Source: Mycolicibacterium sp. HK-90 (lineage in GTDB: Bacteria; Actinomycetota; Actinomycetes; Mycobacteriales; Mycobacteriaceae). From it: DNA of 64,000 nt. The stretch spans positions 5,208,001 through 5,272,000 of the forward strand of contig NZ_CP129613.1 in the NCBI RefSeq assembly GCF_030486405.1, given 5' to 3'. This document shows, piece by piece, positions 8,000 to 61,405 of the stretch. How positions within the stretch are numbered: position 1 is the stretch's first letter; the number at the start of each line of letters is the position of its first letter. The notes below the pieces were generated by a model. The model saw only the letters and a list, made by a program, of their open reading frames with translations. It ran no database searches and had not been told where the DNA came from. The translations under genes and the position numbers were made by a program.

Positions 8000-8070
8000 A
8001 TTGCCTCAAACTTACCGCTGCCCCACGACAACTTTGCGCTGGCACTACGCCCGGTGGCACACTCAAATGC

Positions 8071-8130
8071 ATGCTCACCGAGCAGCAGCGATTTTTCTAC
8101 GGGTACCGGTTCGCGGTGCCCGTGGTCTAG
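8071..8130 (+). CDS. putative aromatic leader peptide of the chorismate mutase gene
   Basis: A 19-codon frame reading MLTEQQRFFYGYRFAVPVV then TAG. Three Phe and two Tyr codons fall within seven positions (FFYGYRF), a composition expected of an attenuator that senses phenylalanine/tyrosine. No clear Shine-Dalgarno sequence precedes it, so the transcript may be leaderless or start very near the ATG. It lies 103 bases before chorismate mutase, and its 3' half overlaps hairpin 1 of the attenuator. The coding claim rests on codon content and context, not on similarity. Confidence 0.7.
   Translation: MLTEQQRFFYGYRFAVPVV
8101..8121 (+). promoter_or_regulatory. attenuator hairpin 1 (pause/protector) within the leader frame
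   Basis: GGGTACCG at 8101-8108 pairs with CGGTGCCC at 8114-8121 (8 bp, one G-U) around the loop GTTCG. It covers the second Tyr and third Phe codons of the leader peptide, so a ribosome stalled there would open it. Bases 8112-8116 (CGCGG) could instead pair with 8148-8152 (CCGCG) in the terminator's left arm, giving a candidate antiterminator of about 5-6 bp. Confidence 0.55.
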
Positions 8131-8143
8131 CTGTATTCCTTCC

Positions 8144-8179
8144 AGCCCCGCGGTCCGCATCCGGATCCGGGGCTCTTTT
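8144..8179 (+). terminator. Rho-independent attenuator terminator before chorismate mutase
   Basis: AGCCCCG at 8144-8150 pairs perfectly with CGGGGCT at 8168-8174, and the stem extends inward through TCCG 8154-8157 with CGGA 8162-8165. It is followed by CTTTT (8175-8179). A canonical hairpin plus T-run is uncommon in mycobacteria and stands out here, between the leader peptide and the structural gene. Confidence 0.72.
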
Positions 8180-8233
8180 CATGAGTGAGGCCTGGAACCG
8201 GCGAGCAGACCCCCGCACAACGAGGAGCCCACC

Positions 8234-8497
8234 ATGACTGAGACCATCGAGAACGTGCCTGAGATCGATGACCTGCGTCGAGAGATCGACGAACTCGATG
8301 CCACCATCCTGGCCGCCATCCAGCGGCGTACCGAGGTCTCCAAGGAGATCGGCAAAGCCCGCATGGCCTCGGGCGGCACCCGCCTGGTGCACAGCCGTGA
8401 GATGAAGGTCATCGAGCGCTACAGCGTGCTCGGGCCCGAAGGCAAAGACCTCGCCATGCTGTTGCTGCGGCTGGGCCGTGGCCGCTTGGGTCACTGA
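8234..8497 (+). CDS. chorismate mutase, AroQ-delta class (intracellular)
   Basis: Converts chorismate to prephenate, the first step to Phe and Tyr. The 87-residue all-helical protein keeps the AroQ-delta core: LRREIDELDATILAAIQRR helix 1, the active-site helix EVSKEIGKARMASGGTRLVHSREM, and the C-terminal motif LLLRLGRGRLGH that contacts DAHP synthase AroG in M. tuberculosis and boosts its otherwise weak activity. It closely resembles Rv0948c. ATG 8234 follows GAGGAG at about 8222-8227. An overlapping 18-codon frame (8181-8237) ends across its start but has no support as a gene. It is controlled by the attenuator upstream. Confidence 0.95.
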   Translation: MTETIENVPEIDDLRREIDELDATILAAIQRRTEVSKEIGKARMASGGTRLVHSREMKVIERYSVLGPEGKDLAMLLLRLGRGRLGH

Positions 8498-54387: not shown

Positions 54388-57228
54388 TCACACCTCCTGT
54401 CGCTGCGGTTGCCGCACCGGTTGGCGCTGCCGTAACGGCCGCTGCCGGATGAACGTCGGCCACCAGAACCACGGTCCGAGGAAGCGCAACAGACACGGCA
54501 CGACGAACGAGCGCACGATCAACGTGTCGAGCAGCAGACCGATGCACACCGTCGAACCGACCTGGCCGATGGTGCGCAGATCGCTGACCAACATCGCCAG
54601 CATCGTGAACGCGAACACCAGGCCCGCAGACGTCACCACACCGCCGGTGCTGCCCAGCGCCCGGATCAGTCCGGTGTTCAACCCGGCGCCCGACTCCTCC
54701 TTCACCCGGGAGATCAACAGCAAGTTGTAGTCCGAGCCGACCGCGACCAGGATGATGAAGGTCAGCGGCAGCACCAGCCAGTGCAGGTGCAGGCCGATGA
54801 GGTGCTGCCACACCAGGATTGACAGCCCGAACGCTCCCGCGTAGGAGAATGCCACCGTGCCGGGGATGACCATGGCAGCGACCAGGCTCCGAGTCAGGTA
54901 CAGCATGATCAAGAAGATCAACACGAATGCGGCGATCGCCACGATCAGTAGATCGGACGCGGCATAGGCCTTGATGTCCTTGTTGTTCGAGCCCGCGCCA
55001 CCGATGTAGATCTTGGAGCCGGCCAACGAGGTCTCCTTGAGCGCAGCTTTGATCGCGTCTGGGAACTGTTCGACGTGGTCGATTCCCTCCGGCCCCATCG
55101 CGTTGCCCTCGTGGGTGACGATGAACCGGGCGGCCTTGCCATCCGGCGACATCATCAACTGCATGCCGGTCTTGACGTCCTCGTTGTCGAAGGCCTCCCT
55201 GGGGATGTAGAAGAAGTCGTCGCTGCGGGATTGGTCGAAGTCGTTACCGACGTTGATCAGGTCGTAGTACGTCTGGTCGGTCTGGGTGGTCTGCAGGTGG
55301 GACGGCCCGTAGTTGTTGGTGATGACACCCAGCAGCGACTGACTGTCGGCCATCATCCGCTCCAACTGCGAGATCAGCTGCGGCAGCAACTGATCGATGG
55401 CCTCGAACGATGTGACGGCATCGGCGATCTGCGCATCCAGGCTGTCGATCCCGTCGAGTGAGTCGAACAGTGATCGCATCGCCCAACAGGCTGGGATGTC
55501 GAAACAGTGCGGCTCCCAATAGAAGTAGTTCTTCAACGGCCGCAGGAAGTCGTCGAGATTGGAAATTCCGGCGTTCATGTCATCGGTGACCTGTTTGAGG
55601 TTCTCAAGCGTGAGCACCGTCGAATGCAGTTCGTCGGCCATCTGCTGGGTCAGCCCGATCACCTTCTGCAGCACCTCGACTGAACGCGCCTGGATCTCGG
55701 CCTGCTTGTCGGTGTTCTCGTTCTGCTGCTCGTTGAACGGCAACTGCTGGCCGCTGCCACTGCCCTGGGTGGTGAACAGGTAGGGAATCGTGGCGTGCTC
55801 CAGCGGCCGGCCCAGCGGTCTGGTGATGCTCTGCACCATGGCGACACCGGGAAGCCGGATGAGACTCTTGGCCACCCGGTCCAGAGAGATGAAGTCGGCC
55901 GAGTTGCGCATGTCGTGGTCACTCTCCACCATCAGCATCTCGCTGAACAGTTTGCTTTGCGAGAAGTGCCGATCCGAAGCCTCGAAACCGAGATTGGCTG
56001 GGCCGTCGGAAGGTTGGTAGGCACGGTCGTCATAGCTGACCCGGTACGTGGGGACGAACACCGCTCCGATCATCACGACCGCCACACTCGCGGCGAAGAC
56101 CGGTTTGGGCCACCGCACCACGCTCGTGGCGATTCGCCGGTACAGGTGCCCCTTGGTCATTCGCTTCGGGTCGAACAGCCCGAAGAGGCTGCCCAGCGTG
56201 AGGATCGCCGGCGCCAGCGTCAGAGCCGCGGCGATGGTGAACACCATGCTGATGGCCACGGCGGGGCCCATGGTGTGGAAGTAGTCCAGCCGGGCTAGGC
56301 TCAGGCAATAGCACGCGCCTGCGATCGTCAGCCCGGAACCGATGATGATCGGGGCGACGCTGCGATAGGCGGTGTAGTACGCATCTTCGCGGCTCTCCCC
56401 GTCCTGCCTGGCCTCCTGATAGCGCCCCAGCAGAAAGATGCCGTAGTCGGTGCCGGCCCCCAGCGTCAGCGCCACCACGATGTTCACCGCGAACGACGAC
56501 AGCGGGATGACACCGAAGTGCCCGAGCGTGGCGATGACGCCTTTTGCGACAAGCATTTCGATCAGGACACTGACGAGCGGAACCAGCAGATTGGGTACCG
56601 ACCGGTAGACCACCAGCAGCATGATGACAATGAGGATGATGGTCAGGATCGTGATGTTGTTGAGGCTGGAGTTGGCGATCGTCAGTGTGTCCGCCGCCAG
56701 CGGCGCCGCCCCGCTGACGTAGACCGTGAGCCCCGGTGGCGGGGTGTTGTGGGCGATGATGTCGCGCACGGCGTTGACGGAGTCGTTCGCCTGGAGCTGC
56801 CCGATGTTTCCGGCGAGCCGCAACAACACGAAAGTCGCCTTGCCGTCGACGCTTTGGGCACCGGCTGCGGTGATCGGCTTGCCCCACAGATCCATCACGT
56901 ATTGCACGTGCTCGGGATCCTGCTTGAGCCGGTTCATCAGGTCGTCGTAGTAGCGGTGGTCGCCGTCGTCGAGCGGCCGGTCAGCTTCGAACACCAGCAT
57001 GGTCAAGCTGGTGGACGTGGACTCCTGGAACTTGTCCCCGATGCGCAGCATCGCAACCTGGGACGGGGCGTAGCTCGGGATCATCGAGCCGGCGAGTTCC
57101 TCGGCGACCCGTTCAACCTGTGGGATGAACGTGTTCGTGGTGACCGCCAGCAGCGCCCAGAACACGATGATCGGCACGGCCAGGACTCGCACGGACCGCG
57201 CGAAAAAGGGCCGGTTCGCCCGATGCAT
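54388..57228 (-). CDS. MmpL-family RND exporter
   Basis: 946-residue transporter with twelve helices in two halves, each with a large external domain. The proton-relay Asp-Tyr pairs are seen in GAGTDYGIFLLGRY (helix 4) and VAVGSDYNLLLISR (helix 10). N-terminus FFARSVRVLAVPIIVFWALL. ATG 57228 or the GTG at 57234 that overlaps the MmpS stop. MmpL proteins export lipids, siderophores or drugs; which class this belongs to cannot be told. It overlaps MmpS and precedes the small membrane gene. Confidence 0.94.
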   Translation of the reverse strand: MHRANRPFFARSVRVLAVPIIVFWALLAVTTNTFIPQVERVAEELAGSMIPSYAPSQVAMLRIGDKFQESTSTSLTMLVFEADRPLDDGDHRYYDDLMNRLKQDPEHVQYVMDLWGKPITAAGAQSVDGKATFVLLRLAGNIGQLQANDSVNAVRDIIAHNTPPPGLTVYVSGAAPLAADTLTIANSSLNNITILTIILIVIMLLVVYRSVPNLLVPLVSVLIEMLVAKGVIATLGHFGVIPLSSFAVNIVVALTLGAGTDYGIFLLGRYQEARQDGESREDAYYTAYRSVAPIIIGSGLTIAGACYCLSLARLDYFHTMGPAVAISMVFTIAAALTLAPAILTLGSLFGLFDPKRMTKGHLYRRIATSVVRWPKPVFAASVAVVMIGAVFVPTYRVSYDDRAYQPSDGPANLGFEASDRHFSQSKLFSEMLMVESDHDMRNSADFISLDRVAKSLIRLPGVAMVQSITRPLGRPLEHATIPYLFTTQGSGSGQQLPFNEQQNENTDKQAEIQARSVEVLQKVIGLTQQMADELHSTVLTLENLKQVTDDMNAGISNLDDFLRPLKNYFYWEPHCFDIPACWAMRSLFDSLDGIDSLDAQIADAVTSFEAIDQLLPQLISQLERMMADSQSLLGVITNNYGPSHLQTTQTDQTYYDLINVGNDFDQSRSDDFFYIPREAFDNEDVKTGMQLMMSPDGKAARFIVTHEGNAMGPEGIDHVEQFPDAIKAALKETSLAGSKIYIGGAGSNNKDIKAYAASDLLIVAIAAFVLIFLIMLYLTRSLVAAMVIPGTVAFSYAGAFGLSILVWQHLIGLHLHWLVLPLTFIILVAVGSDYNLLLISRVKEESGAGLNTGLIRALGSTGGVVTSAGLVFAFTMLAMLVSDLRTIGQVGSTVCIGLLLDTLIVRSFVVPCLLRFLGPWFWWPTFIRQRPLRQRQPVRQPQRQEV

Positions 57229-61332: not shown

Positions 61333-61405
61333 GCCCCCGTAGCTCAGGGGATAGAGCACGGCTCTCCTAAAGCCGGTGTCGCAGGTTCGAATCCTGCCGG
61401 GGGCA
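61333..61405 (+). tRNA. tRNA-Arg (anticodon CCU)
   Basis: A 73-nt cloverleaf. The acceptor arms GCCCCCG and CGGGGGC pair perfectly; the D-loop contains AGCTCAGGGGATAGAGC, the anticodon loop is CTCCTAA (anticodon CCT) on a CGGCT/AGCCG stem, and the T-arm is GCAGGTTCGAATCCTGC. CCA is not encoded. It reads AGG codons. A tRNA-Arg(CCU) 3' end is a common integration site, and accessory genes follow. Confidence 0.96.

Follow-up and report, generated by a model that had tools for sequence, protein, structure and literature searches.

Known attenuators of amino acid biosynthesis

The pheA and trp attenuators of E. coli operate through a hairpin mechanism. Both comprise a short leader ORF (pheL in the case of pheA) with codons for the end product, and the biosynthetic gene is the one attenuated (PMC11802643). 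In C. glutamicum, aroF is preceded by the aroR leader, which contains Phe-Tyr-Phe and was reported to respond to Phe limitation (Neshat 2014, via PMC11802643, PMC4046766, and PMC7356990); the original prediction for the locus described here had pointed to attenuation of aromatic amino acid genes in Corynebacterium. The ilvB1 gene of M. tuberculosis carries a uORF with end-product codons and a Rho-independent terminator, and a truncated RNA of ~120 nt is known (PMC13236596). Mycobacterial poly-Cys uORFs are leaderless and were described as a case of translation attenuation (Canestrari 2020, cited in PMC13236596), and no conserved terminator hairpin was seen in mycobacterial cys leaders (Seliverstov 2005, PMC1262725).

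Across Actinobacteria, six mycobacteria among them, a 2005 survey reported no conserved RNA structure upstream of Phe and Tyr operons (PMC1262725), and the leaders listed for S. lividans are those for leucine, tryptophan, alanine, isoleucine, methionine, and threonine (PMC8079986). The word "chorismate" occurs zero times in the main text, as accessible, of PMC1262725, PMC4633059, PMC4128351, PMC13236596, PMC4974804, PMC8079986, PMC4046766, PMC3890552, PMC10272879, and PMC2965389.

The leader upstream of chorismate mutase

The window analyzed here is the whole stretch of 64,000 nucleotides (64 kb) from Mycolicibacterium sp. HK-90. Chorismate mutase (CM) commits chorismate to Phe and Tyr. The window encodes an 87-aa CM at 8234–8497 (NF005894, TIGR01808, and PF01817, all above cut-off) on the + strand, as are all features of the locus given below. 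The leader at 8071–8180 that precedes this gene is, with a probability of about 0.84, a ribosome-mediated transcription attenuator sensing the charging of Phe- and Tyr-tRNA.

The leader ORF (MLTEQQRFFYGYRFAVPVV, 8071–8130) consists of 19 codons, from the ATG at 8071 to the TAG at 8128–8130. Its codons 8–14 read F F Y G Y R F, i.e., five aromatic residues in seven, exactly as originally noticed. At least five aromatics per seven codons are found in 2 of the 780 small ORFs (10–40 aa) of the window, the other one being located at 54501 on the minus strand. The predicted sensor codons CGA TTT TTC TAC GGG TAC (Arg Phe Phe Tyr Gly Tyr) occupy 8089–8106. Across 34 long ORFs of the window, TTT constitutes 21 of 466 Phe codons (4.5%) and CGA 73 of 1001 Arg codons (7.3%).

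A conserved, -10-like promoter motif (TGGCACACT) is located at 8055–8063, with the leader start codon 7 nt downstream, and TTTGCG at 8033–8038 is a possible -35. As the start codon lies only 6–7 nt past the conserved promoter motif, translation of the leader ORF is probably leaderless. The stretch 8060–8200 (141 nt) folds with -65 kcal/mol, as compared with -46.0 +/- 3.8 for shuffled sequences (z of -5.0; equaled by 0 of 200 shuffles).

Three leader peptides matched 0 families in NCBIfam, and the sole match at the gathering score in an Rfam scan of the window was a tRNA (61333–61405). Among the known Rfam cis-regulatory families, the best one (P15) reached 23.6 bits against a gathering threshold of 70. 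The search for a further copy in the same genome returned one extra match, with an E of only 6.6.

Predicted sensor codons and covariation of hairpin 1

CM was found in 245 of the 248 genomes of the genus. A simple leader rule recognized 48 of 80 relatives (some of them MAGs not named Mycobacterium), and 44 of these 48 leader loci, together with the window, form alignment A1. The record titled M. vaccae (L074) is among the loci with the leader. The covariance model R1 matches 63 of the 80 relatives and the window, decayed copies counted. Upstream regions of these relatives and of loci from further genomes of the genus were sorted into classes after identical ones had been collapsed and after removal of other genera and of loci in which less than 300 nt of sequence was available ahead of the CM match; MAG records not named Mycobacterium were retained. 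A strict terminator pattern was used, as a looser one gave false positives inside uvrD1. Among the 160 distinct mycobacterial or mycobacterium-like regions obtained, 103 contain an RFF leader with a terminator, and this conservation is the principal argument against a chance arrangement. RFF followed by an altered remainder occurs once with and once without a recognized terminator, and RFF lacks a recognized terminator in 3 further regions. RFx leaders number 11 with and 6 without a terminator, other leaders 4 with and 10 without; 3 regions have no start codon and 18 no promoter motif.

The leader frame is conserved down to its codons. CGA encodes the Arg in 103 of the 104 RFF leaders with a terminator, TTT encodes the first Phe likewise in 103, and the second Phe codon is TTC in 74 and TTT in 30. 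The retention of CGA and TTT thus serves either codon rarity within the sensor or the RNA. The same leaders start with GTG (97) or ATG (7), and the distance from the ACT of the promoter motif to the start codon equals 6 nt in 74, 7 nt in 29, and 9 nt in one. RFFYGYRxAVPVV is the common form of the peptide in relatives.

The hairpin proposed to cross the aromatic codons was found at 8097–8125. Hairpin 1 (segments 1:2, CUACGGGUACCG/CGGUGCCCGUGG) pairs 8097–8108 with 8114–8125 over 12 bp and is made of leader codons 9–19; codons F9–Y12 overlap its 5' arm, with F8 positioned 2 nt ahead of the arm. Its mean energy over 45 sequences is -21.8 kcal/mol. Two alignments were inspected for compensating changes: A3 contains 76 rows from the own genus and others, chosen by a script that required the hairpin, and A8, made with MAFFT alone, has 47 rows (44 distinct) that extend into other families and come from covariance model matches. 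The percentage of paired positions is biased upward by the choice of rows in both, and the evidence for hairpin 1 therefore consists of double changes. In A3, these occur at 8 of 13 pairs, with 33 double-change cells as compared with 8.1 +/- 2.1 in shuffled and 6–16 in slid alignments. In A8, 9 of 13 pairs show them (attained in 2 of 500 shuffles), with 34 cells vs 9.6 in shuffled and 4–11 in slid alignments. Both sequence tests, of the leader frame and of the compensating changes, were thus favorable, and the original proposal of a Phe/Tyr attenuator is largely supported.

The same data bear on a very improbable alternative, in which the peptide RFFYGYRxAVPVV itself stalls the ribosome on a ligand. 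Such nascent-peptide arrest would agree with the C-terminus of the peptide being conserved in the genus; however, the 3' arm of hairpin 1 supplies the codons for this C-terminus, CGA and TTT are almost fixed among their synonyms, and the peptide changes along with the stem (e.g., RFFSQAPEAGA in L228, RFFVRHRLPVLDN in L219, and RYFTCPGLRCT in L221). Also in favor of hairpin 1, L219 and L228, with stem arms including GUCAGGCACCG/CGGUGCUUGAC and CUCAGGCACCGG/CCGGUGCCUGAG, respectively, keep RFF and a stem, although the sequence of the stem and the downstream peptide are altered; the same is true of L220 (ACGUGCGCCGG/CCGGUGCACGU), in which RYF is kept.

The predicted terminator and a candidate alternative pairing

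A predicted intrinsic terminator (segments 3:4) with its U-tract occupies 8144–8180 and folds with -23.5 kcal/mol. Its perfect 7-bp arms, AGCCCCG/CGGGGCU (8144–8150 with 8168–8174), are followed by CTTTTC at 8175–8180, so that the 7-bp arms and T-run claimed to stand before the CM gene are present in the sequence. The mean energy over 45 sequences is -25.4 kcal/mol. In alignment A7, which was fitted to the model and built at E 1e-7, double changes affect 9 of 13 pairs of the terminator stem; alignment A6, whose 113 matches lay in many cases on the reverse strand, was left unused. By its sequence, 8144–8180 is predicted to act as an intrinsic terminator preceding the structural gene; the weak U-tract of most copies within the genus speaks against such a role.

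The candidate antiterminator (segments 2:3, 8120–8153) pairs CCGUGG (8120–8125) with CCGCGG (8148–8153), and its inner helix joins GCUG (8130–8133) to CAGC (8143–8146). The possible pairing pointed out originally is indeed foldable in the window (-12.3 kcal/mol), and the mean best fold over 45 sequences equals -13.5 kcal/mol; yet the mycobacterial CCGUGG:CCGCGG is a GC-rich palindromic pairing without covariation. Inside the genus, the antiterminator is a plausible candidate. As the mean energy of the terminator (-25.4) beats that of the antiterminator (-13.5), the switch would have to be kinetic. In 98 of 104 leaders, C or T occupies the terminator-arm position that lies opposite a G in the antiterminator helix and has no partner within the terminator.

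In 14 rows of other genera, the foot of hairpin 1 pairs over 5 bp with the bases preceding the terminator (CGUGG:CCACG, CGUGA:UCACG, or CGCGG:CCGCG). The resulting helix is 98.6% paired and shows 11 double-change cells vs 4.6 in shuffled alignments; double changes fall at just 2 pairs vs 1.8 in shuffles, and the helix overlaps little with the terminator arm. All five pairs are present in 11 of 16 non-genus rows of alignment A4 and in 0 of 11 own-genus rows. These sequences support a pairing alternative to hairpin 1 outside the genus. A further helix proposed by RNAalifold, between the region of the leader stop and the segment after the terminator, was rejected: of its 9 pairs, one double change was seen in one sequence, and the helix is broken there in 8 of 45.

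The third hairpin and the ribosome-binding site

Downstream of the terminator, a conserved segment (GTGAGGCC, 8185–8192) forms part of a third hairpin in relatives, and GAGGAG at 8222–8227 is the Shine-Dalgarno-like (SD) site of CM. The third hairpin is kept among the loci of the genus, with its 3' arm at or upstream of the SD. Its copy in the window (8185–8229) is degenerate and fits neither of the arm types recognized elsewhere.

This hairpin brings in an unlikely alternative, translation attenuation acting mainly on the ribosome-binding site of CM. Here, six segments would form a relay (off: 1:2, 3:4, and 5:6; on: 2:3, 4:5, and free 6), with 3:4 being a relay element instead of a terminator. 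The poor U-tract of the majority of copies within the genus would suit it: not more than 4 T are present in the 8 nt after CGGGGCT in 76 of 104 leaders (GGGGCTCGTCTCTTG type), the window having 5. Against it, a T-run follows the terminator in several loci of other genera (L202, L234), and visual inspection of loci from other genera, L202 for example, places the SD outside the hairpin.

The arms of the third hairpin were analyzed in the 99 distinct of the 104 loci. They tend to occur in matching types (A5/A6 in 37, B5/B6 in 18, mixed in 2, unclassed in 42), and the native duplex (-18.8) is stronger than the shuffled one (-14.6) or A5 with B6 (-13.9), in favor of the relay; nevertheless, arms exchanged between loci pair almost equally well (-17.5, with 41% of swaps equaling or bettering the native value), and B5 with A6 even gives -19.9. 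Pairing of segment 5 with the 3' arm of the terminator (4:5) is also better than in shuffled sequences (mean z of -2.1 over 89). At equilibrium, however, the SD is unpaired at 0.40 with 3:4 locked and at 0.37 with segment 4 free (of 101 loci, 40 more open and 47 less), so freeing the 3' arm of the terminator leaves the SD no more open. With SD accessibility neutral, the occlusion relay was rejected as the main mechanism.

Distribution beyond the genus

At the family level, model R1 (E up to 0.01) matches 72 of 301 genomes in 8 of 31 genera. In 38 of the 40 loci taken from these matches (L202–L241), CM is located downstream. The remaining two (L230 and L231, with E of 0.004 and 0.007) have no CM downstream and look like chance matches, which leaves 6 genera.

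At the order level (R2, E up to 0.001), 127 of 200 genomes and 45 of 60 genera are matched, and in 37 of 40 inspected matches CM lies downstream on the matched strand. Of the other three, L298 was left uncounted (its leader and a CM match, weak at an E of 0.002, are both on the opposite strand), L284 is a 390-nt stub, and L294 contains no CM. There may be more chance matches outside the inspected 40. Leader peptides at this level are exemplified by RFFYGYRSSVPVVAG (L271), QFFYGYRRSVPVATG (L274), and QFYYGYRPPVPVSG (L259).

At the class level (R3, E up to 1e-5), matches come from 67 of 296 genomes and 27 of 114 genera. Twenty matches from 19 genomes were inspected: in 11, CM lies downstream on the matched strand; in 4, an ORF of DAHP synthase type does (L311, L313, L315, and L316; Pfam DAHP_snth_FXD checked among these in L311 only); and L306, L317, and L318 have neither. 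In the remaining two, L308 and L309, DAHP synthase is preceded by an aromatic leader, but on the strand that the model did not match, and they were left uncounted.

An aromatic leader with a terminator thus also stands before DAHP synthase, likewise a gene of the aromatic pathway, in other families (the four loci above and, on the opposite strand, L308 and L309), e.g., MQRKFWRFYGYRPTGTVARRALR. The leaders of L311, L313, L315, and L316 may be related to aroR.

The occurrence of the element across a wide set of genera conflicts with the 2005 survey (PMC1262725). Its presumed absence from earlier descriptions of mycobacteria agrees with the searchable literature, in which no account of a CM leader attenuator was found (an earlier mention elsewhere is possible); the element is not restricted to mycobacteria, as many actinobacterial genera carry it.

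Decay and loss within the genus

Of the 18 regions without a promoter motif, 17 also lack RFF and the strict terminator; the other one (L135) has both and is missed by the promoter pattern only. The 17 of 160 regions without promoter motif, RFF, and terminator indicate that the element is dispensable. In 11 of the 18 (L001, L002, L003, L045, L047, L049, L050, L052, L054, L056, and L057) the whole leader is absent and the CM frame opens with GTG a few tens of bases from the promoter region; from this arrangement, CM itself is probably leaderless there. Such natural losses allow species that have the switch to be compared with relatives that lack it.

Partial decay takes several forms. In L027, L032, L070, L071, L072, L100, and L121, the terminator is unrecognized and the sensor codons are decayed (RLF, RFS, RFI, etc.). 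In L024, the terminator is gone, RFF is kept, and the remainder of the leader is altered. Leaders of ~30 codons with RFP for RFF and a retained terminator are found in L138, L150, L154, L156, L167, and L198; L079, L146, and L168, similar in sequence to this group, have seemingly lost the sensor codons. Two MAG records titled Acidobacteria and Bifidobacterium breve (L007 and L046) contain mycobacterium-like uvrD-CM loci and are probably mislabelled bins.

Co-loss of terminator and sensor codons was considered as proof and rejected: of 5 independent pairs, 4 show the terminator and RFF differing jointly and 0 the opposite (p = 0.125), and just 3 pairs are left when whole-leader losses are excluded.

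Repeated loss in the genus would be expected if the leader were constitutive, i.e., a structured 5' UTR or simply the terminator of a short RNA, unresponsive to amino acids. This is the least probable of the explanations considered, as opposed by the conservation of a rare Phe codon, the covariation of the stem, and the position of the element before CM in 37 of the 40 inspected order-level matches and before DAHP synthase in 4 class-level ones.

Proposed mechanism and comparison with known systems

The alignments show conservation of the frame, the codon choice, hairpin 1, and the terminator hairpin, together with covariation of hairpin 1. The sequence contains clustered codons of the end product, a hairpin over the control codons, a predicted terminator, and a gene of the same pathway downstream. 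Transcription would start at or beside the ATG, and the ribosome would load without a Shine-Dalgarno site. With Phe- and Tyr-tRNA charged, the ribosome would reach the UAG and mask segment 2, upon which the 3:4 hairpin would fold and RNA polymerase would halt at the U-tract. When Phe or Tyr is scarce, the ribosome would stall at F8–Y12 and mask the 5' arm of hairpin 1, so that segment 2 would pair with segment 3, no terminator would form, and CM would be transcribed. If the leader remained untranslated, hairpin 1 would fold and the terminator would still be active.

On a wider scale, there is about an even chance that one ancient family of aromatic-sensing attenuators spans the class, with an RFFYGYR-type leader and a hairpin built from its own sensor codons. 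It would control CM in numerous lineages and, elsewhere, DAHP synthase, would be undescribed except possibly as aroR, and would have been deleted or decayed several times in mycobacteria, where the third hairpin would impose a second level of regulation close to the ribosome-binding site.

High activity of the M. tuberculosis CM requires a complex with DAHP synthase (PMC7762937). The original prediction had CM activating DAHP synthase; the published direction is the reverse, DAHP synthase being the activator of CM (PMC7762937, PMC11802643, in their accessible parts). A Phe/Tyr sensor in the CM leader would add a layer at the gene level to the control of the two enzymes.

Among the described systems, the E. 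coli pheA and trp attenuators likewise have a short leader ORF with end-product codons before a biosynthetic gene (a comparison by features, not by sequence), but the leader here is probably leaderless and the target is a monofunctional CM. With the M. tuberculosis ilvB1 attenuator, the locus shares a mycobacterial uORF with end-product codons and a terminator; ilvB1, in contrast, is a different gene, regulated by branched-chain amino acids. Mycobacterial poly-Cys uORFs are similar as leaderless short ORFs with end-product codons, and differ in that they were described as translation attenuation and that the leader in the window has no run of Cys codons (0 Cys codons in all). The C. glutamicum aroR-aroF system, compared by its description, is also an actinobacterial leader with aromatic codons at a gene of the shikimate pathway, whereas aroR precedes the DAHP synthase gene aroF and the leader in the window is followed by CM. 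The CM attenuator would be a new, widespread member of the classical ribosome-mediated attenuators.
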